Shown one piece after another: positions 7,653 through 46,890 of a stretch of 64,000 nucleotides of DNA (within the stretch, counting starts at the first letter, position 1; every line of letters starts with the position of its first letter). The stretch lies in the NCBI RefSeq assembly GCF_003856835.1, contig NZ_CP034145.1:1612001-1676000 (forward strand). The letters are read 5' to 3'. This DNA is from Haloplanus aerogenes. GTDB taxonomy: Archaea > Halobacteriota > Halobacteria > Halobacteriales > Haloferacaceae. The notes under the pieces are model-generated. The model worked only from the letters and a program-made list of their open reading frames with translations. It had not been told where the DNA came from and searched no databases. The position numbers and the translations under genes are program-made.

Positions 7653-7871
7653 CTACAGAATGAACGTGACGATAGCGAGGACGACGAAGATGATGACGAG
7701 CCATTTTGCGATGTTCATACTGACTCCAGCGACCCCTCGAGCACCGAGTACCGCTGCGATGAGTGCGAGTATCAAAAAGAGGACTGCAAGCTCGATGAAA
7801 CCACCCCCGAACTGCAACGGCACGGCTTGGACTGAGACAGCACTATCCAGAACTCCGTGTGATGCGGCCAT
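7653..7871 (-). CDS. DUF1328 small membrane protein
   Basis: 72 residues from ATG 7871. Two membrane segments ([19 protein letters not shown] and [19 protein letters not shown]) are joined by the [10 protein letters not shown] loop. This pattern is the DUF1328/UPF0391 signature (LA..FL.[10 protein letters not shown].Gia..a..iAk.lf.iF). Bacterial members are stress-associated inner-membrane proteins of unknown mechanism. Upstream in-frame ATGs (for example 7907) only add a basic tail and are not preferred. Confidence 0.75.
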
Positions 7872-8033
7872 AGCGCACCTACGTCTCCCGAGTATTTTAA
7901 CCCACAACGTATTCATCCTCTTCCTGTTTTTGAGTAACCGGGTGACTCCATCCGTGTGGCAGTAATTCAGGGATCGCAGTCTTCTGCGTCTGGCATCCGG
8001 AATGCTAGCGATATTTCCCACCCGATTGTTACT

Positions 8034-8235
8034 ATGTCCCGAGACGACTACGAGAGAGAACTGACAGCCGGAGGAGATTGCATCCATACTAAGCGGTGTG
8101 GCGGATGGAGTTCGTACAGGAGCCGTTCGATTAGGCGGTAGCACGGATGCTGTGACTGTCGATACGCCAGACGACCGCGAAGCCGAAGACGGCGAGATGT
8201 CTCGTACCGGGACGGTCTCCGATGAGCACCAATGA
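8034..8235 (+). pseudogene. Frameshifted amphi-Trp domain protein
   Basis: From ATG 8034 the reading is [12 protein letters not shown]. One extra G at 8070/8071 then shifts the frame. Removing it gives [23 protein letters not shown] followed by an acidic tail to a stop at 8233-8235. The restored protein (about 66 residues) fits the short amphi-Trp domain family (E-x-x-x-S-x-E-E-I-A...L..lAd.l..G.v.l). A sequencing error is possible; otherwise this is a recent single-base inactivation. Confidence 0.5.
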
Positions 8236-8274
8236 ACGGGGTCACGACCTCTCGGCTGACACTGACGTCCGAAG

Positions 8275-8312
8275 CGACGGGTAGCGAGGACAAATCACGC
8301 CGTCTCTGCGAA
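8275..8312. repeat. Copy A of a roughly 38-bp repeat flanking the exchanger gene
   Basis: CGACGGGTAGCG-GGACAAAT...GCCGTC-CTG; the same string with a few changes occurs at 9561-9598, on the other side of the antiporter gene and in the same orientation. Confidence 0.5.
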
Positions 8313-8337
8313 GGGCAGTTGTAGCTGTGTCCCGGCC

Positions 8338-8360
8338 CTTCGCCGAAACGGTCGGCGAAG
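8338..8360. terminator. 9-bp hairpin downstream of exchanger gene
   Basis: CTTCGCCGA, a 5-nt AACGG loop, then TCGGCGAAG, a perfect stem. It lies about 110 bp past the stop of the minus-strand exchanger gene. It could terminate transcription from either side, though no T tract follows. Confidence 0.35.
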
Positions 8361-8468
8361 CCCGGTATGACTCACACAGGCCTTGTCGGGGCAGGGCTTC
8401 CCAATTCGACGATGCGCTCTGCACGGACTGTGGTTCCCGCAGGACCGCTCATCGCAGCCGAGCGTCTC

Positions 8469-9449
8469 TCATCCGACCAGCCCCAGCAGTCCCAGGACCC
8501 ACCGTCCGGCCTCCGAGGCAGCGAACAACGCACCCTCCGGCCGCGAGAGCTGTCGGCCCGTCCACAGCGCCGCGACCATGACCACGGTGACGACGATGAG
8601 CCACGCGATGGATTCGAGCGCGACGGATCCGAACGACAGCGGCCGGACGACTGCCGCCACGCCTAACACACCGAGTACGTTGAAGACGTTGCTCCCGACG
8701 ACGTTCCCGACGGACACGCCGAGCCGTCCTTGCTGCATCGCCACCAGCGAGACGGCGAACTCCGGCGTCGAGGTGCCCGCAGCGACGATGGTGCCGCCGA
8801 TGACCGAGTCGGGGATGCCCGCTGCCCGTGCCAGCGTGGAGGCTGCCCCCACCATCAGGTCGCCGCTCACCAGAACCACGGCGAGCCCCAGTACCAGCAG
8901 GACCGTATCGCGTCCGCGGAACGTCACACGTTCGGTCAACGCCGTCGGTATCCCTTCTTTCTCGGGACTGAGATCCGCGTCGGAGGGGTCGGCACCGGTT
9001 CGGAGCAGGTACGCCGTGTAGGCGACGAACGAGACGAGGAGTACGGCACCCTCGACACGGACCACCATGCGGTCGAACATGACTGCGGCACCGAGAAGAG
9101 TGCTTGCGACCAGAACCACGCCGTCGCGGTGGACCAGCGACCGCTCGATCGGAATGATCCGAACCAGCGAGACGACGCCAAGTATGAACGCGAGATTGTA
9201 GATGTTCGACCCGACGACGTTGCCGACTGCAATCGCCCCCAGATCGGCCAGTGCCGCGTCAGCGGTGACCACCAGCTCCGGAGTGGAGGTACCGGCAGCG
9301 ACGATGGTGAGACCAATAGTGAGCTCCGACAGTCCGAATCGACGGGCCAGCCGTACCACGGAATCGACGAGGAGTCGAGCCCCGATCCAGAGTCCGCCGA
9401 CTGTCGCAACGAGGATTCCGACTTGGACAGCGGTTCCGCTGCCCACCAT
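8469..9449 (-). CDS. Calcium/sodium antiporter (CaCA family, YrbG-like)
   Basis: 326 residues from ATG 9449, with about ten membrane segments. It contains the two inverted CaCA alpha repeats: GLTIVAAGTSTPELVVTADAAL...GNVVGSNIYNLAFILG in the first half and GGTIVAAGTSTPEFAVSLVAM...GNVVGSNVFNVLGVLG in the second. The acidic PE and N/S residues coordinate the cation in this family. Its role is exchange of Ca2+ (or K+) for Na+ across the membrane, useful in a salt-loving cell. It stands alone, between two related repeats. Sequence between 9449 and 9653 is not needed for the protein. Confidence 0.9.
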   Translation of the reverse strand: MVGSGTAVQVGILVATVGGLWIGARLLVDSVVRLARRFGLSELTIGLTIVAAGTSTPELVVTADAALADLGAIAVGNVVGSNIYNLAFILGVVSLVRIIPIERSLVHRDGVVLVASTLLGAAVMFDRMVVRVEGAVLLVSFVAYTAYLLRTGADPSDADLSPEKEGIPTALTERVTFRGRDTVLLVLGLAVVLVSGDLMVGAASTLARAAGIPDSVIGGTIVAAGTSTPEFAVSLVAMQQGRLGVSVGNVVGSNVFNVLGVLGVAAVVRPLSFGSVALESIAWLIVVTVVMVAALWTGRQLSRPEGALFAASEAGRWVLGLLGLVG

Positions 9450-9560
9450 CACGTATCGTGAGAGATGTCCACAGGTAGCCCCATAAAACCAGTCGTCGAC
9501 TGGGTCGTGAGGCCCCGTCGAAAAACGACACGCTCTCTCGTAACGGGGTACTGTCCAACA

Positions 9561-9598
9561 CGACGGGTAGCGGTGACAAATTAGGCCGTCCCTGAGGG
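9561..9598. repeat. Copy B of the roughly 38-bp repeat flanking the exchanger gene
   Basis: CGACGGGTAGCG-TGACAAAT...GCCGTC-CTG, upstream of the exchanger and parallel to the copy at 8275-8312. The core CCGCTACCCG (minus strand) also occurs in the hairpin at 12265-12300. Confidence 0.5.
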
Positions 9599-9698
9599 TA
9601 CGTCGGTGTCGTCCCGGCGAGAACGGAAGTAGCAAGTCCGACTCAACGGCCACGAGTGTATTCGCTCGCCGTTGGTCAATCGATCACCGAGGGGATGG

Positions 9699-10241
9699 CT
9701 AGAAATCCTCGAATGTGCCGTCAGTGAACACCGTCACCCGGCCGTCCTCTTCGCTGAGTGTGATCGCCGCGATCACCTCTTGTCGGGTCGAAGTTTCCAG
9801 CGCGCTCATGTGACGTGCACCCATCCACCCCGCATAGGGAAGATCGTCGTTTCGTCGGCATTCGGCTGGAGAGAGCTGCTTGACTCGGACCATCGTCTCC
9901 TCTATCGTCCCGTCGCTGTGAACGACGACTGCGCCATCACACGATAACGCTACGTTCTGTGCAGCCTCAAGAAATGCATCGATCTCGGCAAAGACCGTTG
10001 CACAGTCCTCGACCGGCCAGCGGTTCGTCCCCATCTGAGCCGCAAAGTCGGTCATGGAACCCCGTTCGACGACGAAATAGAGTCCGGGTCCACGGGCGTA
10101 GGGATCATCCCATCGCTCAAATCCGAGGCTGATGTCCTTGACGCACCCCTCGATCCGCTCGAGTACTGTGTCGATGTCTGTACCATCAGAGTTCGGCTCC
10201 AACGTCGCAGAACTATAGATGGGTTCGACCATGCTTCTCAT
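9699..10241 (-). CDS. DisA_N domain protein, probable diadenylate cyclase (DacZ-like)
   Basis: About 180 residues from ATG 10241 (10232 is equally possible). The DAC domain fills the C-terminal two thirds: SCDGAVVVHSDGTIEE holds the DGA metal/ATP motif, and GARHMSALETSTRQEVIAAITLSEEDGRVTVF corresponds to the RHR-S motif, here RHMSA. Proteins with this domain condense two ATP to c-di-AMP; the haloarchaeal DacZ is the known example. The gene is divergent from a K+ channel with RCK domains, a known class of c-di-AMP targets. Activity is inferred. The RHM in place of RHR deserves checking. Confidence 0.75.
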   Translation of the reverse strand: MRSMVEPIYSSATLEPNSDGTDIDTVLERIEGCVKDISLGFERWDDPYARGPGLYFVVERGSMTDFAAQMGTNRWPVEDCATVFAEIDAFLEAAQNVALSCDGAVVVHSDGTIEETMVRVKQLSPAECRRNDDLPYAGWMGARHMSALETSTRQEVIAAITLSEEDGRVTVFTDGTFEDF

Positions 10242-26064: not shown

Positions 26065-26153
26065 CGATCCGCCCGCGACGGAGACCGCCGAAACCCGCGG
26101 ACTGGAGCGCTACGATCCGTAGAGAGTAGGCAGCTCCTAACCGACAAAACCTC

Positions 26154-26190
26154 GAATTAATCCCTCTAACGGGGAATTAGCTATTAATTC
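26154..26190. promoter_or_regulatory. AT-rich dyad upstream of the TasA/propeller gene
   Basis: GAATTAAT (26154-26161) and ATTAATTC (26183-26190) form an 8-bp inverted repeat spaced by 21 bp in an AT-rich island, with a GGGGAATTA half-site between. The site lies about 92 bp before ATG 26282. It may contain both promoter and operator. Confidence 0.4.
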
Positions 26191-26224
26191 AGAACGAGTG
26201 ACATTTGGACACTCCTCGGGGGAT

Positions 26225-26264
26225 GGAGGCCGCTCGTCGATCCGATTCGTTCGGTGGGGCCTCC
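26225..26264 (+). promoter_or_regulatory. Hairpin in the 5' leader of the TasA/propeller gene
   Basis: GGAGGCC (26225-26231) pairs with GGCCTCC (26258-26264); inside, CCGA-TTCGT-TCGG forms a short hairpin. It ends about 17 nt before ATG 26282, as in the leaders of the 38508, 40561 and 42646 genes. Confidence 0.35.
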
Positions 26265-26281
26265 GAAGGGGGAGCAAACAC

Positions 26282-28195
26282 ATGACCGACGACGCTTACA
26301 ACCTGTCACGGCGGAAGGCGCTGGCCGCACTCGGGGCCATCGGGGCCGCCTCTGCGGGCACGGGTCTCGGGACTTCCGCGTTCTTCAGCGATCAGGAAAC
26401 GTTCGAAAACAATCGACTCGTCGCGGGCACGCTCGACATGAAGGTCAGTTGGGCGGAGCATTACAGCGACTGGAGCGAGGACGAGGCCCAGTACGCGCAC
26501 ATGGAGGGCGGCGAGTTGGTCATCGACGATCTGGATGGATTCATGGCGGCCACGTTGCAGGAGCAGTATCCGCCGGGTGGACTCGGCCCGAACGAGGACC
26601 CCTGCGACGTGCTCGCTGACGTGCCGGAGGACCTCGACCTTGGGGGACAACCCCGGCCGCTGATCGACATCGAGGACGTGAAGCCGGGTGACTTCGGCGA
26701 AGTCACCTTCGACTTCGCGCTGTGTGACAATCCGGGCTACCTCTGGATGAACGGCGAACTGCTGGAGAACGCCGAGAACGGGCTGACGGAGCCCGAAGCG
26801 GACGACCCGGACGAGGGGGACGTGATGAACGCCGGCTTCGGCGCCGGGCTGGCCGGCCTCGTCGGCTCGCTCGCCGCAAGTCGGCTAGATACCGAACCGG
26901 ACGCCGACGGCGACGACGGTATCGTCACCCGGAAGAACGCGTTGCGTACTGCCACCGGCGCCGGGTTCGCCACCCTCGGCGTGGGTGCCTTCGCCGGGAG
27001 CGCCGCCGCGGCGGAGGGCGACGTGCTGGGGGCCGCCGACCTGCCCGGCCACTCCGTCGGCGTCGGCATCGGCTTCGACGGCACGTACGTCTACACGCTC
27101 GACGGTCTCCAGTCGTCTACCCTTCAGGTGTACACGCCCACACCTGGCGGGAGCGAGGCGTCGCCGGTGACGGCGACGCTGGTGGCCGAGAAGAACATCG
27201 TAACCGGCGGCGGCAGTCCCGTCTTCATCAGCACCGTCGACTGGGATCAGGGCCGCGAGAGGCTGTGGGCGGCGGACAACGGCGGCGGTGCCCACCTCAT
27301 CGACGTTGGCGATCCGACGGACGGATCGGAGGACGCAATCGCCGAGTTCCAGTTCTCGGCGCCGAGCGGACTGATCGACGGCCTCGCGTACGACGGCAAC
27401 GGCGACACCATCTGGTGGAGTCAGGACGTCCAGCCGACCCTCTATCACTTCGAGGCGGACGGCACGCAGATCGAGACGATCACGCCCACGGACCAGAACG
27501 GCAATCCGATGGGCATCAGTGGCGTGGCGACCGGGGTCGACGTGAACGGCCGACCGACGCTGTACGTCGGGAACCACACCGGCGCCGAGCGGATCATCCG
27601 CATCTACGCCGACGACGGCACCTACATCAGCGACTTCGAGACTCCGCAGGGCCGCATCGAGGACCTCGCGTGCGACCCCAACACGTACGACACGACGGCG
27701 CTTCTCACCATGGACGCCTTCGACGACACCTACTTCGCCTTTGAGATTCCGGAGGGGTCGTGTCTGGTTGGTGGCGTCGAGGAACCCCAGCCGCCGGAAG
27801 AGGGAATCGGCGAACTCGCCGACGCCCTGCAGGTCACCATCTGGTACGACGACGACTGTGACAACATCCTCGACGACACCGAGGAAGTCGTCTTCGAGGG
27901 GTCGCTCGCGGACGCGATGGTCCAACTCGGGACCGGCAACGGAATCCCGCTCGCGGGCGACATCGACGCCGCGCAGGGCGGCGGGACCGGACGCAACTGT
28001 TACAGCGCGACCCAGCGCCACTGCATAGGCTTCCGGTGGGATCTGCCGGTGGATCACGCCAACGAGATCCAGTCCGACTCCGTCCGGTTCGACCTCGGCT
28101 TCTACACCGAGCAGTGCCGCCACAACGACGGGAGCGGAATGGGCGTGCTCAACGAGGAAGAACTCGAGGAGGAGGAAGAGGAGAACGGCGCGTAG
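26282..28195 (+). CDS. Secreted TasA-like protein with inserted beta-propeller domain
   Basis: 637 residues from ATG 26282. An RR-type leader (NLSRRKALAALG) runs into the SipW-type end GLGTSAFFSDQETFENN. Residues about 30-180 and 507-620 match the two halves of the TasA-like proteins at 38508 and 40561 (for example VKPGDFGEVTF-LCDNPGYLWMNGELLENAENG, then ALQVTIWYDDDCDNI, then HANEIQSDSVRFDLGFYTEQCRHNDGSGM). Between them (about 181-506) is a beta-propeller-like domain with repeated DG-YVYTLDG, LYVGNHTGAERI and DWDQGRERLWAADNG blocks. A second signal-like stretch (about 213-245) lies at its start. TasA relatives form secreted fibres; fibre formation here is inferred. Confidence 0.75.
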   Translation: MTDDAYNLSRRKALAALGAIGAASAGTGLGTSAFFSDQETFENNRLVAGTLDMKVSWAEHYSDWSEDEAQYAHMEGGELVIDDLDGFMAATLQEQYPPGGLGPNEDPCDVLADVPEDLDLGGQPRPLIDIEDVKPGDFGEVTFDFALCDNPGYLWMNGELLENAENGLTEPEADDPDEGDVMNAGFGAGLAGLVGSLAASRLDTEPDADGDDGIVTRKNALRTATGAGFATLGVGAFAGSAAAAEGDVLGAADLPGHSVGVGIGFDGTYVYTLDGLQSSTLQVYTPTPGGSEASPVTATLVAEKNIVTGGGSPVFISTVDWDQGRERLWAADNGGGAHLIDVGDPTDGSEDAIAEFQFSAPSGLIDGLAYDGNGDTIWWSQDVQPTLYHFEADGTQIETITPTDQNGNPMGISGVATGVDVNGRPTLYVGNHTGAERIIRIYADDGTYISDFETPQGRIEDLACDPNTYDTTALLTMDAFDDTYFAFEIPEGSCLVGGVEEPQPPEEGIGELADALQVTIWYDDDCDNILDDTEEVVFEGSLADAMVQLGTGNGIPLAGDIDAAQGGGTGRNCYSATQRHCIGFRWDLPVDHANEIQSDSVRFDLGFYTEQCRHNDGSGMGVLNEEELEEEEEENGA

Positions 28196-28262
28196 CCCAT
28201 CCCGTCGGACACGGCGTTCGACCCGGCCGAGCGCGTGGCGACCGACGAGCCGAGCCGCGACG

Positions 28263-28646
28263 CTACGAGACCCAGTTCGTGTTCAACGAGCCGTTGCCCG
28301 AGAAGTCGTCGTAAGCCACGTCCGCGAAGTCGAAGGCGACCTCCTGCTCCGTGTTCGCCGCGACGGTTACCTGCTGTTGCTGTTCGGTCCGGGTTTCGCC
28401 GGCCCTGACGCGGATGCGGAGCGTCCGGGTTCGCTGGGCGTTCGTCGGGTTCTGAACCGTCGCCAGCACTCGCAGGTGGCCGTCGTCGGCTTCCTCAACG
28501 TCGAGGCTGGTCACGCGTAGCGAGCGCTGGGGGGCCGCCGTCGGTTCGGACGGCGTCGGCGGCGTCCGCGGCCCCGTCGCTCGTGGCAGGTTCGAGCACC
28601 CGCTCAGAAGCGTCACCGCGATGGCGAGGACGCGGCGTCTGTGCAT
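28263..28646 (-). CDS. Small lipoprotein of unknown function
   Basis: 127 residues from ATG 28646. Basic MHRRRVLAIAVTLLSGCSN contains a hydrophobic stretch and the lipobox LLSGC. The mature part has an Ig/beta-sandwich look (SLRVTSLDVEEADDGHLRVLATVQNPT, then RTLRIRVRAGETRTEQQQQVTV). The protein is probably anchored to the outside of the membrane. It lies tail-to-tail with the TasA/propeller gene in the interval between XPB and Bax1. No family was recognised. Confidence 0.6.
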   Translation of the reverse strand: MHRRRVLAIAVTLLSGCSNLPRATGPRTPPTPSEPTAAPQRSLRVTSLDVEEADDGHLRVLATVQNPTNAQRTRTLRIRVRAGETRTEQQQQVTVAANTEQEVAFDFADVAYDDFSGNGSLNTNWVS

Positions 28647-28685
28647 ACGTGGCCCCTCCGCCCCGACCGGCAAAACCGTTGTTCA

Positions 28686-28757
28686 TTACGCCAGCAACCG
28701 TGCCCCGAACGCGATCAGGAGGACGGCGAGCAGGTCGATGCGGCGCTCGCGGTTCAC
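28686..28757 (-). CDS. Possible 23-residue membrane peptide
   Basis: GTG at 28757 to TAA at 28686 encodes a Met-Asn-Arg-Glu-Arg-Arg start followed by one hydrophobic helix (IDLLAVLLIAFGARLLA). The basic head and single TM fit the very small membrane peptides of haloarchaea. There is no homologue evidence. Confidence 0.3.
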   Translation of the reverse strand: MNRERRIDLLAVLLIAFGARLLA

Positions 28758-28810
28758 GGCCGGACCCTCACAGCGGCGGGCCTTTATTCCCGCCGCTCCG
28801 ATAGGCGGCC

Positions 28811-38507: not shown

Positions 38508-40397
38508 ATGAACGAAGACCGACAATTCAGCGTTTCCCGGCGGAAGGTACTCGCCGGGCTCGGCACCATCGGCATCGCCTCCGCGGGCGCAGGACTCGGC
38601 ACCACTGCCTACTTCAGCGACCAGGAAACCTTCCAGAACAACCAGCTGACAGCTGGGACACTCGACATGAAGGTCGACTGGGAAGAGCACTACTCCGACT
38701 GGTCCGACGACGAAGCCGCCTTCGCGTCCATGGGCACGATGGAGGAACACGACATCGAACTCCCCGCGCTCACCTCCGGTGGCCAGCTCGTCGCCGACGC
38801 CAAGCCGATCTACCTGACGCTCAACGGCGAGACGGCGGGCGAGAAGCAGACCGCCAAGGACGGCCTCTGGGACGCCACCTCCGTCGAGGCGTTCCCGGAC
38901 GTACTCAACGGTGACGGCTCTTACGACGGCATTCAGGACGCGTTCTCCGACGAGGAGGCGTGTGACATCCTCACCGACGTGGGTGGCAACTCCAGCGGCC
39001 TGAGCGACCCCCGCCGTACGCAGGGTACCTTCGCCGGCCAGACGACCGAGGAGGGCGACCCCCTGATCAACATTCAGGACGTCAAGCCCGGCGACTTCGG
39101 CGAAGTCACCTTCAGCTTCCACCTCTGTGACAACCCCGGCTACGTGTGGCTGAACGGCGACCTCATCGAGGCGCGCGAGAACGGTCACACCGAGCCCGAG
39201 AACGAGGACCCCGACTCCGTCGGTCCGTCCGACGAGGTGAGCGAACCCGGTGACCTCGAGACGAGTCAGGTCGAACTGCTCGACGAGATCGTCACGCGCG
39301 TCTGGTACGACCCGAACGGCAACAACCAGGTGGACATGCTCTCGGGCGAACTCGACATCATGATCGCCATCGACGCCTCCGGCTCCATCTCGGGCGACAA
39401 GAACCAAAGCGGCACCGAGGCGAACAACCTCGTGCAAGGTGTCGACGAGTTCGTCGCCGCCCTCGCGGCGTCGCCCGCCGACATCGAAGCTGGGCAGGTG
39501 CTGTTCGGAGAGAACAGCAGCCTCACCAGCTTCACCGGCCTCGGCTCGCCCGGCGCCCTGCCGACCATGGCGTCGGTGTACCCCAACAGCAACCGCGGCA
39601 ACACGCCCCTGCCTGCCGCGCTCGACGTGTGCGACCAGGAACTGGCCACCGGCCGCCCGGGCGCCGACAAGATCATCGTCGCGTTCACCGACGGTGGACC
39701 GAACTACAGTGCTGACAGCTACTCCGCGGGTGGCTACACCGCGCCGCGGGACGGCGTGGGCTACTCCGAGGACGGCAGCTCCGGTAACGGCTACGACAAC
39801 AACGGCGGCGGTACCGTGACCGTCGGCGAAGAAGAGGAGACGGCGCTGGTCGCAGAGACCATCCGCGACTCCGGCAGCCGCATCGTCGTCGTGAACGTCG
39901 CCGACGACCCCACCGAGGATCAGGGCAGCACCGGCGTCACGCTCCGGGAGTACCTGAGCGGCACCGGTTCCCCGTACCCCGAGGGCGGCATCGCTAGCTC
40001 CGGGTTCTACTTCGAGGTGGACCTGGCCAACTTGGAGGCGGTCGCCGACAGTCTGGCCGCGAGCGTCGCGGTCTCCGAGGAGGTGTTCTTCCAGGGCACG
40101 CTCCGCGAAGTGCTGATGGCCATGGCCGACAACGACGGCCGCGGTATCCCGCTCGACGGCGATGTCTCCACCGCGTTCGACGAGCTAAGCGATCCCGAGA
40201 ACGACGCGGACCGCGACTGTTTCGCCGGCGAGGGCACGACCCACTACGTCGGGTTCCAGTGGTGGCTTCCCATCGACCACGCGAACCAGATCCAGAGCGA
40301 CTCCGTGTCGTTCGACGTCGGGTTCTACACCGAACAGTGCCGCCACAACGACGGCGCTGGGATGGTCCCCGAGGAACCCGTCGAGATTCAGTCCTAA
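38508..40397 (+). CDS. Secreted TasA-like protein with inserted von Willebrand A domain
   Basis: 629 residues from ATG 38508. The leader has RR at 11-12 (VSRRKVLAGLG) and a SipW-type end (GLGTTAYFSDQETFQNNQLTAG). The TasA-like fold occupies about 35-280 and 521-620, with VKPGDFGEVTFSFHLCDNPGYVWLNGDL and the shared C-terminal HANQIQSDSVSFDVGFYTEQCRHNDGAGM. A vWA domain (about 282-520) is spliced in after VTRVWYDPNGNNQVD. Its MIDAS motif is complete: DASGS, the Thr of GNTPL, and FTDGG. vWA domains bind a metal ion and a ligand, suggesting adhesion by a fibre subunit. It is the first gene of a SipW-linked cluster. Confidence 0.8.
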   Translation: MNEDRQFSVSRRKVLAGLGTIGIASAGAGLGTTAYFSDQETFQNNQLTAGTLDMKVDWEEHYSDWSDDEAAFASMGTMEEHDIELPALTSGGQLVADAKPIYLTLNGETAGEKQTAKDGLWDATSVEAFPDVLNGDGSYDGIQDAFSDEEACDILTDVGGNSSGLSDPRRTQGTFAGQTTEEGDPLINIQDVKPGDFGEVTFSFHLCDNPGYVWLNGDLIEARENGHTEPENEDPDSVGPSDEVSEPGDLETSQVELLDEIVTRVWYDPNGNNQVDMLSGELDIMIAIDASGSISGDKNQSGTEANNLVQGVDEFVAALAASPADIEAGQVLFGENSSLTSFTGLGSPGALPTMASVYPNSNRGNTPLPAALDVCDQELATGRPGADKIIVAFTDGGPNYSADSYSAGGYTAPRDGVGYSEDGSSGNGYDNNGGGTVTVGEEEETALVAETIRDSGSRIVVVNVADDPTEDQGSTGVTLREYLSGTGSPYPEGGIASSGFYFEVDLANLEAVADSLAASVAVSEEVFFQGTLREVLMAMADNDGRGIPLDGDVSTAFDELSDPENDADRDCFAGEGTTHYVGFQWWLPIDHANQIQSDSVSFDVGFYTEQCRHNDGAGMVPEEPVEIQS

Positions 40398-40560: not shown

Positions 40561-41613
40561 ATGACAAAACTCACACTCACTCGCCGCCGCCTGCTCGCCG
40601 GTCTCGGCACCATCGGTGTCGCTTCCGCCGGTGCCGGCCTCGGCACGACCGCCTACTTCTCCGACCAGGAGACGTTCGAGAACAACCAGTTGACCGCCGG
40701 CGAGTTCGACCTCAAGATGGACTGGCAGGTGACCTACACCGGGCCGAACGGCTTCGAGTACGTCACGGCGTCGCCGGACCAGCTGCAGAACGAAGATATC
40801 GATACGCTCGCGCGCGACAACCTGTTTCGCACGATTTCGGGCGCCGACGGCATTCGCGACCCCATCGACTCCCGCGACACCATCGCGAACCGGGCGTTTA
40901 GCTCCGACTACGACGACCTCACGGCGGATCAGCAAGCGACCGTCGAGGACGCGTTCCGGTCGCAGTTCGCCGACGTACCGCAGGACCTCTTCGAGATGCG
41001 GCCGATCATCGACCTCGACGACGTGAAACCCGGCGACAGCGGCTCGGTGTCGTTCAGCCTGCACCTGTTCGATAACCCCGGCTACATCTGGCTGAACGGC
41101 CGGCTCGTCGAGGCGCGAGAGAACGGCCACACCGAACCCGAAGGCGAGGACCCCGACACCGTCGGCCCCGCGGACGAGGTGTCGACGCTCCTCGACAACG
41201 ACGTGGAACTCTTGGACGAGATCCGAGTCACCGTCTGGTACGACCTCGACGGCGACGCCGAGGTGGACACTGACGAACCCGTCCTGCTCGGCGGGAACGC
41301 CGATCCGACCGCGAATCCGACGCTCCGGGACCTGTTCGGGCTCCTGTCGACGGGGAACGGGCTTCCCCTCGACGCCACGGCAGATCCGCAGGCCGGCGCC
41401 GTCGACCGCGCTTGCTTCGCCAACTCGACGACGTACTACGTCGGGGTCCTGTGGGAACTCCCCGTCGACCACGCCAACCAGATTCAGTCCGATGGCGTCA
41501 CCTTCGACCTCGGGTTCTACGCCGAGCAGTGCCGCCACAACGACGGTGCCGGGATGATAGACGCCGACGAAACCACCCCGTCCGAACCGGAGGTCGTGAC
41601 GGACGACGAGTGA
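40561..41613 (+). CDS. Secreted TasA-like (camelysin/SipW-substrate) protein
   Basis: 350 residues, the plain form of the family with no inserted domain. The leader LTRRRLLAGLGTIGVASAGAG then GLGTTAYFSDQETFENNQLTAGEFDLKMDW combines Tat-like RR with a SipW-type cleavage region. Key core motifs are VKPGDSGSVSFSLHLFDNPGYIWLNGRLVEARENG, IRVTVWYDLDGDAEVDTDEPVL and HANQIQSDGVTFDLGFYAEQCRHNDGAGM. Relatives (TasA in Bacillus, AbpA in Pyrobaculum) form extracellular fibres by strand exchange. Fibre assembly here is inferred from similarity and from the neighbouring SipW peptidase. Confidence 0.75.
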   Translation: MTKLTLTRRRLLAGLGTIGVASAGAGLGTTAYFSDQETFENNQLTAGEFDLKMDWQVTYTGPNGFEYVTASPDQLQNEDIDTLARDNLFRTISGADGIRDPIDSRDTIANRAFSSDYDDLTADQQATVEDAFRSQFADVPQDLFEMRPIIDLDDVKPGDSGSVSFSLHLFDNPGYIWLNGRLVEARENGHTEPEGEDPDTVGPADEVSTLLDNDVELLDEIRVTVWYDLDGDAEVDTDEPVLLGGNADPTANPTLRDLFGLLSTGNGLPLDATADPQAGAVDRACFANSTTYYVGVLWELPVDHANQIQSDGVTFDLGFYAEQCRHNDGAGMIDADETTPSEPEVVTDDE

Positions 41614-43464: not shown

Positions 43465-44642
43465 GCGGCGACGACGGCCTCCGGATGAACCGCCGGCGCC
43501 TGCTGACCGCTATCTCGACCGTCGGCGCTGTCGGCGCGCTGACCGGACGCGGCGCCGCCGCGTACCTGACCGACCGCGAGGCGTTCGCCGATAACCGCAT
43601 GACTGCGGGGTCGGTGACCCTCGCCACAGACGGCGTCGACACCGGACAGGCGAGTCTCGGGTTCACTATCGACGACTACGGCTTCGCGAACCGCGACGCG
43701 GAGACGGTCTGTCTCGGCCTCGGCGAGGACTCGAACCCCGGCTGGGTGTGGATTCGGGCCTGTCCCGACCAGTCCGTCTTCGAAGACGCTCTCGACGCCA
43801 GCCTGACCGTCGACGACGAGACGGTTTACTCGGGATCACTCGGCGGCCTCTTCGCGTATCTCTCCGGATCGGACGGCGGCGGCGTCCTCCTCACGGCCCT
43901 CGCGGGCGACGGCGACCCCGTCAATCCCGGCGCGGACAGCGCAGTCTGTCTCACGGTCGCCATCTGGGCGCCGACGACGCTCGCGGACGAACCCGGCACC
44001 GTCCGAGCGCTGAAGGCGGCGTCGCCGTTCACGGTGATCATCGACGCCTACGCCGAGCAGTCCCGACACGTGCCGACGCCGCGGCGACCGGTCGCGGGGT
44101 TGAATCCCTCGTTCACGTTCCCCGCGTGTGAACCGACGGGCGGGAGCGAAGGCGACGAGGACGGCGACGGCTACGCCATCAGCAACGTCTCACTGTGTGC
44201 ATCGGGGCCGGTCGATCCGTCCGGGATCACGTGGACGGTCCTCGACCCCGACACGGGCACGCCTGTGACCGGGAGCGTCGACGAACCGTTCGCTGTGCGG
44301 ATCGAATCGACCGAACCGATCCAGTACGCCGTCGTCAAGGCGGGGCCGGAGTACCGGCGCTTCGACGTCGGCGGCGCGACGACGTTCACCGTCACCTCGA
44401 CGGGTGGGACGCTCCTCGACGTGCCGAAGAACTTCGCCCGATGTGCCTGCGAGGGCGACGGCGTCAAACTCGACTGGCTCGATACGACCGACGCCTTCGG
44501 GACACCCGTCGCGCTGTCGTGTGGTGACGAATCGGGTGGCAAGCCACCGGAGGACGACGCGAGTGGTGAGGAACCGACCGGGAGCGACGGTGCGCCCGAG
44601 ACGAGTGGCGGCGGCAGTCCGCCGAACGGAGACGACAAATGA
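43461..44642 (+). CDS. SipW-type secreted protein with C-terminal Ig-like region
   Basis: 393 residues. Leader MNRRRLLTAISTVGAVGALTGRGAAAYLTDREAFADNRMTAGSV ends in a SipW-type site. A TasA-like core runs to about residue 215 (SNPGWVWIRACPDQS, ATSPFTVIIDAYAEQSRHVPTP). The rest is a second domain (about 245-345, WTVLDPDTGTPVTGSVDEPFAVRI then YAVVKAGPEYRRFDVGGATTFTVTSTGG) and a low-complexity tail. It overlaps the genes on both sides (ATGA). It could be an anchor or cap for the fibre; this is inference. Confidence 0.65.
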   Translation: MSGDDGLRMNRRRLLTAISTVGAVGALTGRGAAAYLTDREAFADNRMTAGSVTLATDGVDTGQASLGFTIDDYGFANRDAETVCLGLGEDSNPGWVWIRACPDQSVFEDALDASLTVDDETVYSGSLGGLFAYLSGSDGGGVLLTALAGDGDPVNPGADSAVCLTVAIWAPTTLADEPGTVRALKAASPFTVIIDAYAEQSRHVPTPRRPVAGLNPSFTFPACEPTGGSEGDEDGDGYAISNVSLCASGPVDPSGITWTVLDPDTGTPVTGSVDEPFAVRIESTEPIQYAVVKAGPEYRRFDVGGATTFTVTSTGGTLLDVPKNFARCACEGDGVKLDWLDTTDAFGTPVALSCGDESGGKPPEDDASGEEPTGSDGAPETSGGGSPPNGDDK

Positions 44643-45802
44643 CACCAAACATTCGGCAGATGCTGGAGCCCCGGACGATCGGACGAGCGTTGCTCGTCGT
44701 CGTCTTGCTGGCTCTGATCGCCCCCTTCGTCGTGTACGCGGTCCCGGCGACCGTCGGCGGCGAGGCGAGTTACGTGGTCCTGACGGCCAGCATGACGCCG
44801 GCCATCGCGCCGGGTGACGTGGTCGTCGTCGACGCCGTGCCCGCACGGGACGTGCGCGTCGGTGACGTCATCGTGTTCGAACAGCAGGCAGGCGATTCCA
44901 TCCCGATCACGCACCGCGTGATCGCGGTCGACCGCCCGGCCGACGCTCCGCCAGAGTTCCGGACGAAGGGTGACGCGAACGAGGACGCGGACCTGTCTCC
45001 CGTGACACCCGACCGTCTGGTCGGCCGGGTCATGCTCACCATCCCGCTGATCGGGCACGTCATCCAGTTCGTCGGGACGCCCGCCGGATTCGTCGCGCTC
45101 GTGGTCCTCCCGCTCGGCCTGCTGGTCGTCTCCGAAGTCGTCGACCTGCTCCGGTCGGGACGGTCCGGTAACGTGGTCGCGAGCGACGGTGACGACGGTG
45201 GTGCTGTCTCGACGGCCGACGCCACTGTCGACGACGCGGCCCAGCCAACCGCCACCCCCGCGGACGATCAGGTCGTGATCACGCCCGCCGATCTGACGCT
45301 GACGAGCGTGGCGCTCGGCGCCTTCGCCGTCTACGCCGGCTACGCGGCCCTGCAGAACACGACGACCGTCTCGGTGACGCTCGCCGTCGCCGTCGGGGCG
45401 CTCTTTGCCCTCGCGGCTGGCATCCGCCTGTTCGGGCTCGCTGACGAGGGTATCGATGCCGGTACCGTGTCGGCCGCCGCCCCGTCCGTGTACATCCACG
45501 ACGCCCGCCCGCCCGGCCCGACCGTCGACGTGGCGTCGCCGGCCGACCTGCGAGCCATCGCTGGCGCGCTCGGTCGACCCGTCCTGCGCGACGACGGCGA
45601 CCGGTACGTCGTCCTCGACGGCTCGGTCACGTACGCCTGCGACGTGCCGGCGGAGCGTGACTGCGAGGACGCAGTCGAGGAGCATCCCGACACCGAACCG
45701 ATGGTCGACACCGATTCGAGCGTCGTGCCGGCAGCGGCGTCGGCGTCGGAGTCGGCCACGCCCTCGTCCGCATCCCCGAACTCAGGTGGTGCCGGCCGAT
45801 GA
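44639..45802 (+). CDS. sipW: SipW-like signal peptidase I (ER/archaeal S26B type)
   Basis: 387 residues. TM1 (about 16-36) precedes the peptidase domain, whose nucleophile is in LTASMTPAIAPGDVVVVD (Ser about 49). The second catalytic position is His in ITHRVIAV, as in the ER/SipW subgroup rather than Lys-type LepB. The RTKGDANEDAD motif is present. Further TMs (about 140-160, 222-242, 245-265) and a Ser/Ala-rich tail follow. It should cleave the leaders of the flanking FSD-type proteins. It overlaps both neighbours by 4 bp. Confidence 0.85.
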   Translation: MTPNIRQMLEPRTIGRALLVVVLLALIAPFVVYAVPATVGGEASYVVLTASMTPAIAPGDVVVVDAVPARDVRVGDVIVFEQQAGDSIPITHRVIAVDRPADAPPEFRTKGDANEDADLSPVTPDRLVGRVMLTIPLIGHVIQFVGTPAGFVALVVLPLGLLVVSEVVDLLRSGRSGNVVASDGDDGGAVSTADATVDDAAQPTATPADDQVVITPADLTLTSVALGAFAVYAGYAALQNTTTVSVTLAVAVGALFALAAGIRLFGLADEGIDAGTVSAAAPSVYIHDARPPGPTVDVASPADLRAIAGALGRPVLRDDGDRYVVLDGSVTYACDVPAERDCEDAVEEHPDTEPMVDTDSSVVPAAASASESATPSSASPNSGGAGR

Positions 45803-46890
45803 CGGCGGCCGACCGCCGGGTGTTCCTGCCCGTCCTCGTCGCCTGCTGGCTGACGTTCGCGGCCGCGTTCGGCGGCGCCTACACCCTCGCGGTGTTCAGC
45901 GACACTGGCAACGTGGACGCCACCGTCGACGTGTCGGGCCTGCCGGTGATCGAACCGGTCGTGCCGCCGACGCCGCCCTCGGTCGGGGGCTTCGCTGCGG
46001 GCAACGACTCCGGCAACGCGACGGTGGCCGGCTTCTCGACGCCCGGCAACGCGCCCGGTCCAGCCGCACCGACCGGGTCGTCCGGCGGCGGTTCGGCTGC
46101 CGGCGATGCGCCGACGCTATCGAGCGACAGCGAGTTGGACTCCGCGCCACCTGCACCCACGTCCGCCGGGGACGACACCGACGGTGGTGATGGGAGCGGC
46201 GACGGTGACAGCGACACCGATACCGGTTCCGAGACGGGAGACGACGAGTCGAACGTCGGCACCGGCGACGGTGCTGCGTCCGGCGACGACACCGACACCA
46301 GTGACGCCGCGGAGACGTCCGATGCCGACGGATCGAACGACGATTCGACGGACGGCACCGAATCGGCGGGCGATAGCACGACCGGGGACGGTGACGACAC
46401 GGACACGTCGAGTGACGGCGATTCGACTGGCGACGGTGACGGCGATTCGACTGGCGACGGTGACGGCGATTCGACTGGCGACGGTGACGGCGATTCGACT
46501 GGCGACGGTGACGGCGATTCGACTGGCGACGGTGACGGCACCGACGGTGGCTCGGACGACGATACCGGCGGCTCGACCGACGGGAGTTCGAGCGACGGTG
46601 GATCGGACGACAGCGATTCGGACAGCAGTTCGGACGACGGGTCCAGCGATAGCGGGTCCAGTGCTGGCGACTCGGATGACGGTAGTTCGAGCGACAGCGA
46701 TTCGAGCAGCGATTCGAGCGACGGCGATTCCGGGAGCGACTCGGGAAGTTCGAGTGATGGCGATTCGGACAGCAGTTCGGACAGTGGCAGTTCGAGCAGT
46801 GGCGATTCCGGCGGTTCGAGCGGCGGCGACTCGGGTGGTAGCGATTCCAGTGGCAGCGATTCTGGCGGCAGCGACTCGAGTACCGATTAG
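45799..46890 (+). CDS. Ser/Asp/Gly-repeat surface protein with SipW-type leader
   Basis: 363 residues. An N-terminal TM (about 8-30, PVLVACWLTFAAAFGGAY) ends in TLAVFSDTGNVDATV, a SipW-type cleavage site. A Pro-rich linker follows, then about 250 residues almost entirely Asp, Ser, Gly and Thr, with DGDGDSTG repeats. The tail resembles Ser/Asp-rich stalks of surface adhesins, is very acidic and could be glycosylated. It is the last gene of the ATGA-linked operon. It may be an anchor or matrix-filling component. Stop codons of this gene and of the convergent mptE overlap. Confidence 0.65.
   Translation: MTAADRRVFLPVLVACWLTFAAAFGGAYTLAVFSDTGNVDATVDVSGLPVIEPVVPPTPPSVGGFAAGNDSGNATVAGFSTPGNAPGPAAPTGSSGGGSAAGDAPTLSSDSELDSAPPAPTSAGDDTDGGDGSGDGDSDTDTGSETGDDESNVGTGDGAASGDDTDTSDAAETSDADGSNDDSTDGTESAGDSTTGDGDDTDTSSDGDSTGDGDGDSTGDGDGDSTGDGDGDSTGDGDGDSTGDGDGTDGGSDDDTGGSTDGSSSDGGSDDSDSDSSSDDGSSDSGSSAGDSDDGSSSDSDSSSDSSDGDSGSDSGSSSDGDSDSSSDSGSSSSGDSGGSSGGDSGGSDSSGSDSGGSDSSTD
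46417..46536 (+). repeat. Five perfect 24-bp tandem repeats in the Ser/Asp-rich gene
   Basis: Unit GGCGATTCGACTGGCGACGG + TGAC is repeated five times without a change (46417-46440, -46464, -46488, -46512, -46536), each encoding GDSTGDGD. Perfect repeats of this kind often vary in copy number between strains. Confidence 0.9.

Follow-up and report, generated by a model that had tools for sequence, protein, structure and literature searches.

The locus considered here raises the question of how a propeller-like domain, preceded by an apparent export signal, came to lie in the middle of a haloarchaeal TasA-like protein, and of what that signal may do there. In the window (the whole 64,000-nucleotide stretch of Haloplanus aerogenes DNA that was analysed), a single open frame on the forward strand (26282–28195) encodes this focal protein of 637 aa, which is of the TasA/SipW type with an inserted cassette and scores above the curated cut-offs for both TIGR04088, the SipW-type signal domain (24.0 bits, cut-off 19), and PF12389 (28.3 bits, gathering cut-off 22.5; the best stretch is residues 27–56 only). 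Alignment with paralogues places an insert of 332 residues between E178 and E511 (residues 179–510; 26816–27811), enclosed by two TasA halves (residues 36–178 and 511–617), and the order inside it is hydrophobic segment I, an acidic linker, a Tat-like segment II, the beta-propeller and a Pro/Glu linker.

Layout of the focal protein and its neighbours

The protein begins with a Tat-like, SipW-type signal (SRRKALAALG...GLGTSAFFSDQE; 26282–26386, + strand), identified from the sequence and a TIGR04088 match at residues 18–51, and continues with the TasA N-half as far as the junction ...TEPEADDPDE at E178 (26387–26815, +), for which strands are predicted, with many blocks at pLDDT 79–93 in the full-length AlphaFold model. 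Segment I (MNAGFGAGLAGLVGSLAASRL, residues 182–202; 26825–26887, +), which was missed in the initial annotation, is followed by the acidic linker (203–215; 26888–26926, +; 7/16 scored residues charged) and by segment II (TRKNALR...GSAAAA, residues 216–244; 26927–27013, +), which reads TRKNALRTATGAGFATLGVGAFAGSAAAA. The propeller comes next (245–498; 27014–27775, +), and a Pro/Glu linker of low pLDDT (EEPQPPEEG; 27776–27811, +) returns the chain to the host fold at the TasA C-half (ELADALQVTIWYDDD...EQCRHND, 511–617; 27812–28132, +), which was modelled mostly at pLDDT about 90. The initial annotation had placed the insert at about 26825–27804, only a few residues off, and had described a signal-like stretch at about residues 213–245, which is real and corresponds to segment II. 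A foreign composition of the insert was considered and rejected, as GC content (0.648 in the N-half, 0.738 in segments I and II with their linker, 0.671 in the propeller and 0.654 in the C-half) deviates just in the Ala/Gly-rich segment.

Further along the same strand, alignment identified one paralogue without an insert (40561–41613) and another (38508–40397) with a vWA domain (PF13519 at residues 284–396, 27.2 bits, cut-off 27) at a second, downstream loop. The vWA insert lies one strand later than the focal insert, after WYDPNGNNQVD, which fits the offset of ~30 residues from which it had been proposed that two loops accept domains, and that proposal holds. A SipW-like S26 signal peptidase is encoded at 44639–45802 (+; PF10502 29.7 bits, cut-off 22.9) and likely processes the focal N-terminal signal. 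Directly after this gene, 45799–46890 encodes a Ser/Asp-rich low-complexity protein with GDGDSTG repeats and no Pfam match.

In its SipW-type signal, signature motifs and insert-flanking halves, the focal protein resembles the TasA/camelysin/SipW-dependent proteins (PF12389, TIGR04088), among them B. subtilis TasA fibres and the archaeal bundling pili, and the likeness includes the SipW-like peptidase, here encoded 16 kb away. In contrast to that family, the haloarchaeal copies carry large domains as inserts at two loops or as C-terminal tails. According to PMC9674648, donor-strand exchange builds the TasA fibres of B. subtilis, to which some archaeal fibres are related; haloarchaeal TasA-like proteins may form filaments or fibres. 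A TasA profile had no significant match among solved structures, the best being the chain 9p0a_C, described as 'Pilin' and having a similar RR...GLGT...GAF N-terminus (E 0.066, non-significant). The VIA structure comparison was filled by propeller matches, so the absence of TasA from that list says nothing. Our literature search, with subscription papers and preprints outside its range, turned up no account of TasA-like proteins in haloarchaea and none that treats SipW, signal peptidase and biofilm in Haloferax.

Origin of the propeller and history of the insertion

The propeller-like repeats pointed out in the initial annotation are upheld by structure prediction. AlphaFold2 modelling of the insert alone (five sequences) gave pLDDT of about 90 over most of the propeller and 20 predicted strands, which by count would therefore make about five blades. 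Relatives with separate signals were left out of a folding alignment because earlier ones had misplaced them. Foldseek ranks propellers of the NHL and WD40 kinds highest for this model (E about 1e-8), with TMq 0.43–0.49 for the NHL matches on a query that includes about 60 disordered residues, and VIA alignment of the propeller gave Z 16.8 at rmsd 3.4 over 206 residues; the predicted fold is thus that of a beta-propeller. Sequence libraries recognise it weakly, through a solved protein named yjiK (E 0.0016), and PF13449 (Phytase-like) stays below its gathering score of 27.6 for both the focal protein (14.3 bits) and P0003 (23.1 bits).

The insert has matches at E 0.001 in 8/170 family genomes; the propeller itself is matched in four of these (the focal protein's own genome, G075, G073 and G059) and the signal-like part in the other four, and one more insert match, in G035, falls in a frame of unrelated look. 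In the class sample 3/391 genomes match, and a pattern scan of the named genomes confirmed two propeller loci, in Halonotius roseus and in a proteobacterial MAG (29% identity). The focal and G075 propellers are 45% identical, and identity to the focal propeller is 41% for P0002 (G073, of the same genus) and 37% for P0003 (H. roseus, G059), in both of which the propeller lies outside TasA behind an RR signal. These two proteins share with the focal protein the propeller family and the spacing from signal to domain, and differ from it in having the signal outside the TasA fold and long unrelated C-terminal parts. The Halonotius copy moreover continues an ABC exporter frame: its propeller gene lies inside one frame of 1778 aa (L154:2526-7862, - strand) with the exporter (PF00664, PF00005) ahead, so that the RR signal is internal there too, at ~residue 640, unless translation restarts at M629. 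In G073 the separate propeller gene and the gene next to it, protease-like by eye (L074:4193-7645 and 7748-9799), have a common C-terminal repeat of dockerin-like look; GC around the propeller gene is low (0.505; other loci of that genome have 0.60–0.71), and a gene that looks TnpB-like is nearby. A phage or plasmid origin was considered and rejected, as the insert had no tblastn match in the phage and plasmid collections.

TasA-like matches occur in 7/12 genus genomes, from which 70 ORFs were collected, and an internal Tat-like segment is present in four of these (focal, L061, L052 and L071). Because it is absent from the remaining 66, and because close relatives (L068 and L088, whose N-halves are 71% identical to the focal one) have an empty site, the insert is derived and not ancestral. 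The genes on either side of the focal one, for an XPB-like helicase and a DUF790 protein, are both found in 12/12 genus genomes. The gap between them is about 0.5–0.6 kb by coordinates in five genomes (G068, G069, G071, G075 and G078) and 6 kb in G077, and the longer gaps in G070, G072, G073, G074 and G076 hold other genes, some of which by eye encode a metallo-beta-lactamase-fold protein or a permease. In the window this variable interval spans 26065–28810; among the genomes examined only the focal one has a TasA gene there, and a small gene of lipoprotein-like type is found repeatedly in the intervals inspected. The G075 copy is at another locus, near what by eye are transposase genes or remnants.

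In a backbone tree built from the N- plus C-halves with the insert left out (53 rows, some with long branches), the focal protein groups with L053, L068, L088, L051, L052, L071 and L095 (98/99), and L061 from G075 falls in a different backbone set of 16 (100/99). A single clade of focal and L061, a pair chosen for testing after their low identity and a quick tree had been seen, was rejected (delta lnL 107, p-AU 1e-51), and with it the simple inheritance of one fused gene. Since the propeller sits on two different TasA backbones, the cassette has either moved between TasA genes or entered twice at the same junction. In the focal genome, L051 and L052 are identical at 547/577 bases (95%) up to GACGACCCCGACGAG, carry unrelated inserts, and then agree at 336/413; this shows directly either an exchange of passengers or a gene conversion that covered the first half of two genes whose passengers differ. 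It is possible that conversion with passenger exchange is ongoing between these two genes.

From the homology to Tat-bearing relatives, the unshared placement, the passenger exchange at the junction and the two TasA backbones, it is very probable that a secreted beta-propeller was captured with its own Tat signal at a permissive TasA loop. The suggestion that a whole secreted-protein gene had been spliced into a TasA gene therefore stands as far as the signal-bearing relatives and the derived state of the insert are concerned, but a single simple splice does not accommodate segment I, the recurrence of the segment pair or the two backbones. Two expectations that went with it, that the propeller gene would be found outside TasA in related genomes and that the insert would not date from the root of the family, agree with P0002 and P0003 (the Halonotius copy being in an exporter frame) and with the ORFs lacking an internal Tat-like segment or having an empty site.

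The two hydrophobic segments

Between the RR/RK motif and GDxLG, segment II and the Tat signals of P0002 and P0003 align gap-free (4/5 rows); segment II runs on in this way into the mature domain, and also weakly matches the signal peptides of other secreted proteins; in the frames read, matches to the signal part alone fall near the starts of secreted proteins, one of them halocyanin-like by eye. Since the Tat-bearing relatives align in this way and the other matches lie near such starts, segment II descends from a signal peptide. The Tat model TIGR02811 (cut-off 48.45) scored the buried segments of L052 (19.2 bits, E 0.0011) and L061 (15.8 bits, E 0.013) and reported no match to the internal segment of the focal protein, and it gives the N-terminal signal of P0003 just 19.6 bits, which is also under the cut-off. 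Segment I is absent from P0002 and P0003.

Profile searches of the 170 family genomes scored at most 29–34 candidates per genome, and counts from them refer to the matches listed. Among these, a profile of the junction and segments found the pair in six TasA-like proteins from three genera: the focal protein, L061 (G075), L052 (own genome), L071 (G073), and two from other genera than the focal one, L102 (G092) and L101 (G127); segment I precedes segment II in 6/6. A profile of the pair alone ranked the same six on top among the matches listed, and its weaker matches are mainly to segment II, as ordinary Tat signals would be expected to give; a few weak ones span both segments, e.g. in G139, G067, G122 and G134. 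In the order sample, 2/293 genomes match at E 1e-8. Partial matches to the module (G196, G056, G108, G170, G175, L060 and L069) have no internal Tat-like segment.

Three unrelated passengers follow the pair at the same junction, namely the propeller, an unnamed domain (L052, L071 and L102) and choice-of-anchor L (L101; NF038133, E 1.6e-61). The last also occurs there without the pair, in L051 (NF038133) and L095 (67% identity to the L051 insert), as does the second passenger type in L121 (35% identity), and on the sequences compared the segment pair appears to be an element of its own. Proteins with choice-of-anchor L are usually anchored by a C-terminal sorting tail, whereas here the domain is carried by the TasA fold. 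We considered whether segment I might come from a C-terminal sorting motif, and rejected this after five stretches gave no NCBIfam match to E 10, in a search whose filters drop weak matches.

The composition of the segments is distinctive. Among the six proteins listed, charged residues number 0/103 in segment I (none among the 19 scored in the focal protein), 51/129 in the linker and 6/133 in segment II. The focal and G075 proteins differ at 28/40 compared positions of the two segments with no charge gained; if 40% of residues were charged, as in the linker, a crude independence model puts the chance of this at 8e-7. With charge absent from segment I and rare in segment II despite this divergence, both segments seem to be maintained, subject to the crudeness of the model. 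As a control for segment I, the 66 ORFs lacking segment II were inspected and 59 with a readable junction kept (7 dropped); in six of the 59 a hydrophobic 14-mer free of charge lies within 60 residues, five times in a conserved GTLxxL/GSLxxL stretch of compact proteins (by eye) and once through a misread junction. The motif of segment II is RR in L052, L071 and L102, RK in the focal and G075 copies, and RN in L101, and an A-x-A-like end is kept in 6/6 proteins among the matches listed.

Both segments are weakly hydrophobic, with best 19-mers of KD 0.7–1.4, and a Hessa-type scale, applied to these segments alone, is unfavourable to them at +4 to +10. AlphaFold places both at pLDDT <50; the full model forms no helix in either, and the insert-only model just a single short one of low confidence. 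An internal translation start before segment II was rejected, V215 being GTC and no start codon. A start at segment I, where the focal and G075 genes have ATG, was likewise rejected as a common feature because L052, L071, L101 and L102 have no Met there.

Display, export and the wider family

The explanation we prefer is that the haloarchaeal TasA-type surface or filament subunit would act as a display platform whose permissive loop, after TEPE.DDPDE and before ELLDxIxVxxWYD, takes interchangeable passenger cassettes, and that the focal cassette would be a secreted beta-propeller captured with its own Tat signal, plus a second hydrophobic segment in front. Segments I and II might then form a membrane hairpin: the N-terminal signal would take the TasA half outward, segment I would lead back in, the RK/RR of segment II would face the cytoplasm, and segment II would lead out again. 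The folded propeller would be exported by Tat, the subunit remaining tethered near the membrane or being cut after AAAA, and the outcome would be a propeller shown on the TasA fold, perhaps for binding or fibre anchoring. We regard this statement as a whole, from display platform and captured cassette to hairpin or second export, as evenly balanced; display by a TasA-type subunit is its rather probable part, and the hairpin or second export possible at somewhat less than an even chance.

The nearest precedents for the export step are the dual Sec/Tat membrane proteins (actinobacterial Rieske, Sco3746 and polyferredoxin; eLife 2017, PMC5449189), in which, according to that paper, the twin-arginine motif of an internal Tat signal has an even number of membrane segments before it, and part of the mechanism is that the segment after the motif is of low hydrophobicity. 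The focal protein is similar in having a Tat-like segment in mid-protein with a folded domain after it; the hydrophobic segments ahead of the motif would also be even in number, the N-terminal signal and segment I making two, if the weakly hydrophobic segment I counts as a membrane segment. It differs from the proteins described there in having no strong transmembrane helices and no recognised cofactor domain, and in that its first segment is a SipW-type signal; the focal and G075 proteins also have RK in place of the twin arginine. A hairpin topology would explain why segment II always occurs with segment I (6/6 among the matches listed). Against it are the weak hydrophobicity, the RK or RN in 3/6, the lack of a confident model of the segments, and the N-terminal signal, which looks Tat-type and so implies folding before export, making re-entry hard.

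Several of these observations would also suit a Tat signal that came with the captured gene and is now functionless, tolerated as a floppy linker behind a low-complexity linker in the form of segment I. The substitutions of RR, the disorder of the segments in the AlphaFold models, the passengers at the same site without the pair (L051, L095 and L121) and a focal gene missing from this locus in every relative examined are all in keeping with such a relic, but the divergence of the focal and G075 segments without any gain of charge (8e-7, on the crude independence model), and a segment I that all six proteins have and that the two relatives with a signal outside TasA lack, make it somewhat unlikely. 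The A-x-A-like ends found in 6/6 proteins among the matches listed suggest another possibility, in which a working segment II is cleaved after AAAA/ASA to release the TasA N-half with segment I from the propeller with the TasA C-half. The topology would be right for such a polyprotein if segment I spans the membrane; we nevertheless think it improbable, given that the TasA C-half would lose its covalent partner and that Ala-rich ends arise easily from composition. We also weighed whether the pair is a soluble helical stalk or interface that spaces the passenger from the fibre and plays no part at the membrane or in export, as the weak hydrophobicity of both segments and the recurrence of the pair with different passengers might indicate, but the homology of segment II is to genuine Tat signals and no confident helix is predicted, and this we judge very improbable.

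Among 54 parsed TasA backbones (a motif was not found in the other 16/70 ORFs), an insert of >150 residues separates the halves in 21, a C-terminal tail of >90 is present in 27, one has both and seven have neither. In the scanned proteins, the passengers to which Pfam or NCBIfam gives a name are vWA, laminin-G-like, cupredoxin and choice-of-anchor L. The focal genome itself encodes TasA-like proteins with cupredoxin (PF00127), a laminin-G-like domain (PF13385) and a weak vWA match (L046, L047 and L050). With such varied inserts, tails and named passengers, the TasA-like family would thus be an adaptable carrier of surface domains, and the focal protein a case where the passenger brought its export signal with it.

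This suggests that TasA-type surface proteins are interchangeable display platforms. We offer more tentatively, and as rather unlikely, the further proposal that cassettes bring a re-entry segment and a second Tat signal, such that one polypeptide crosses the membrane twice, with the TasA half followed by a separately folded passenger in the manner of a polyprotein. The TasA-type fold would be a platform with a defined acceptor site, at which passenger exchange may be visible at the DNA level within one genome, and these proteins would be natural substrates on which to examine whether a secreted protein can have a second, internal signal that Tat accepts, a question made directly testable by the pairs of proteins that carry the same passenger with and without the two segments.
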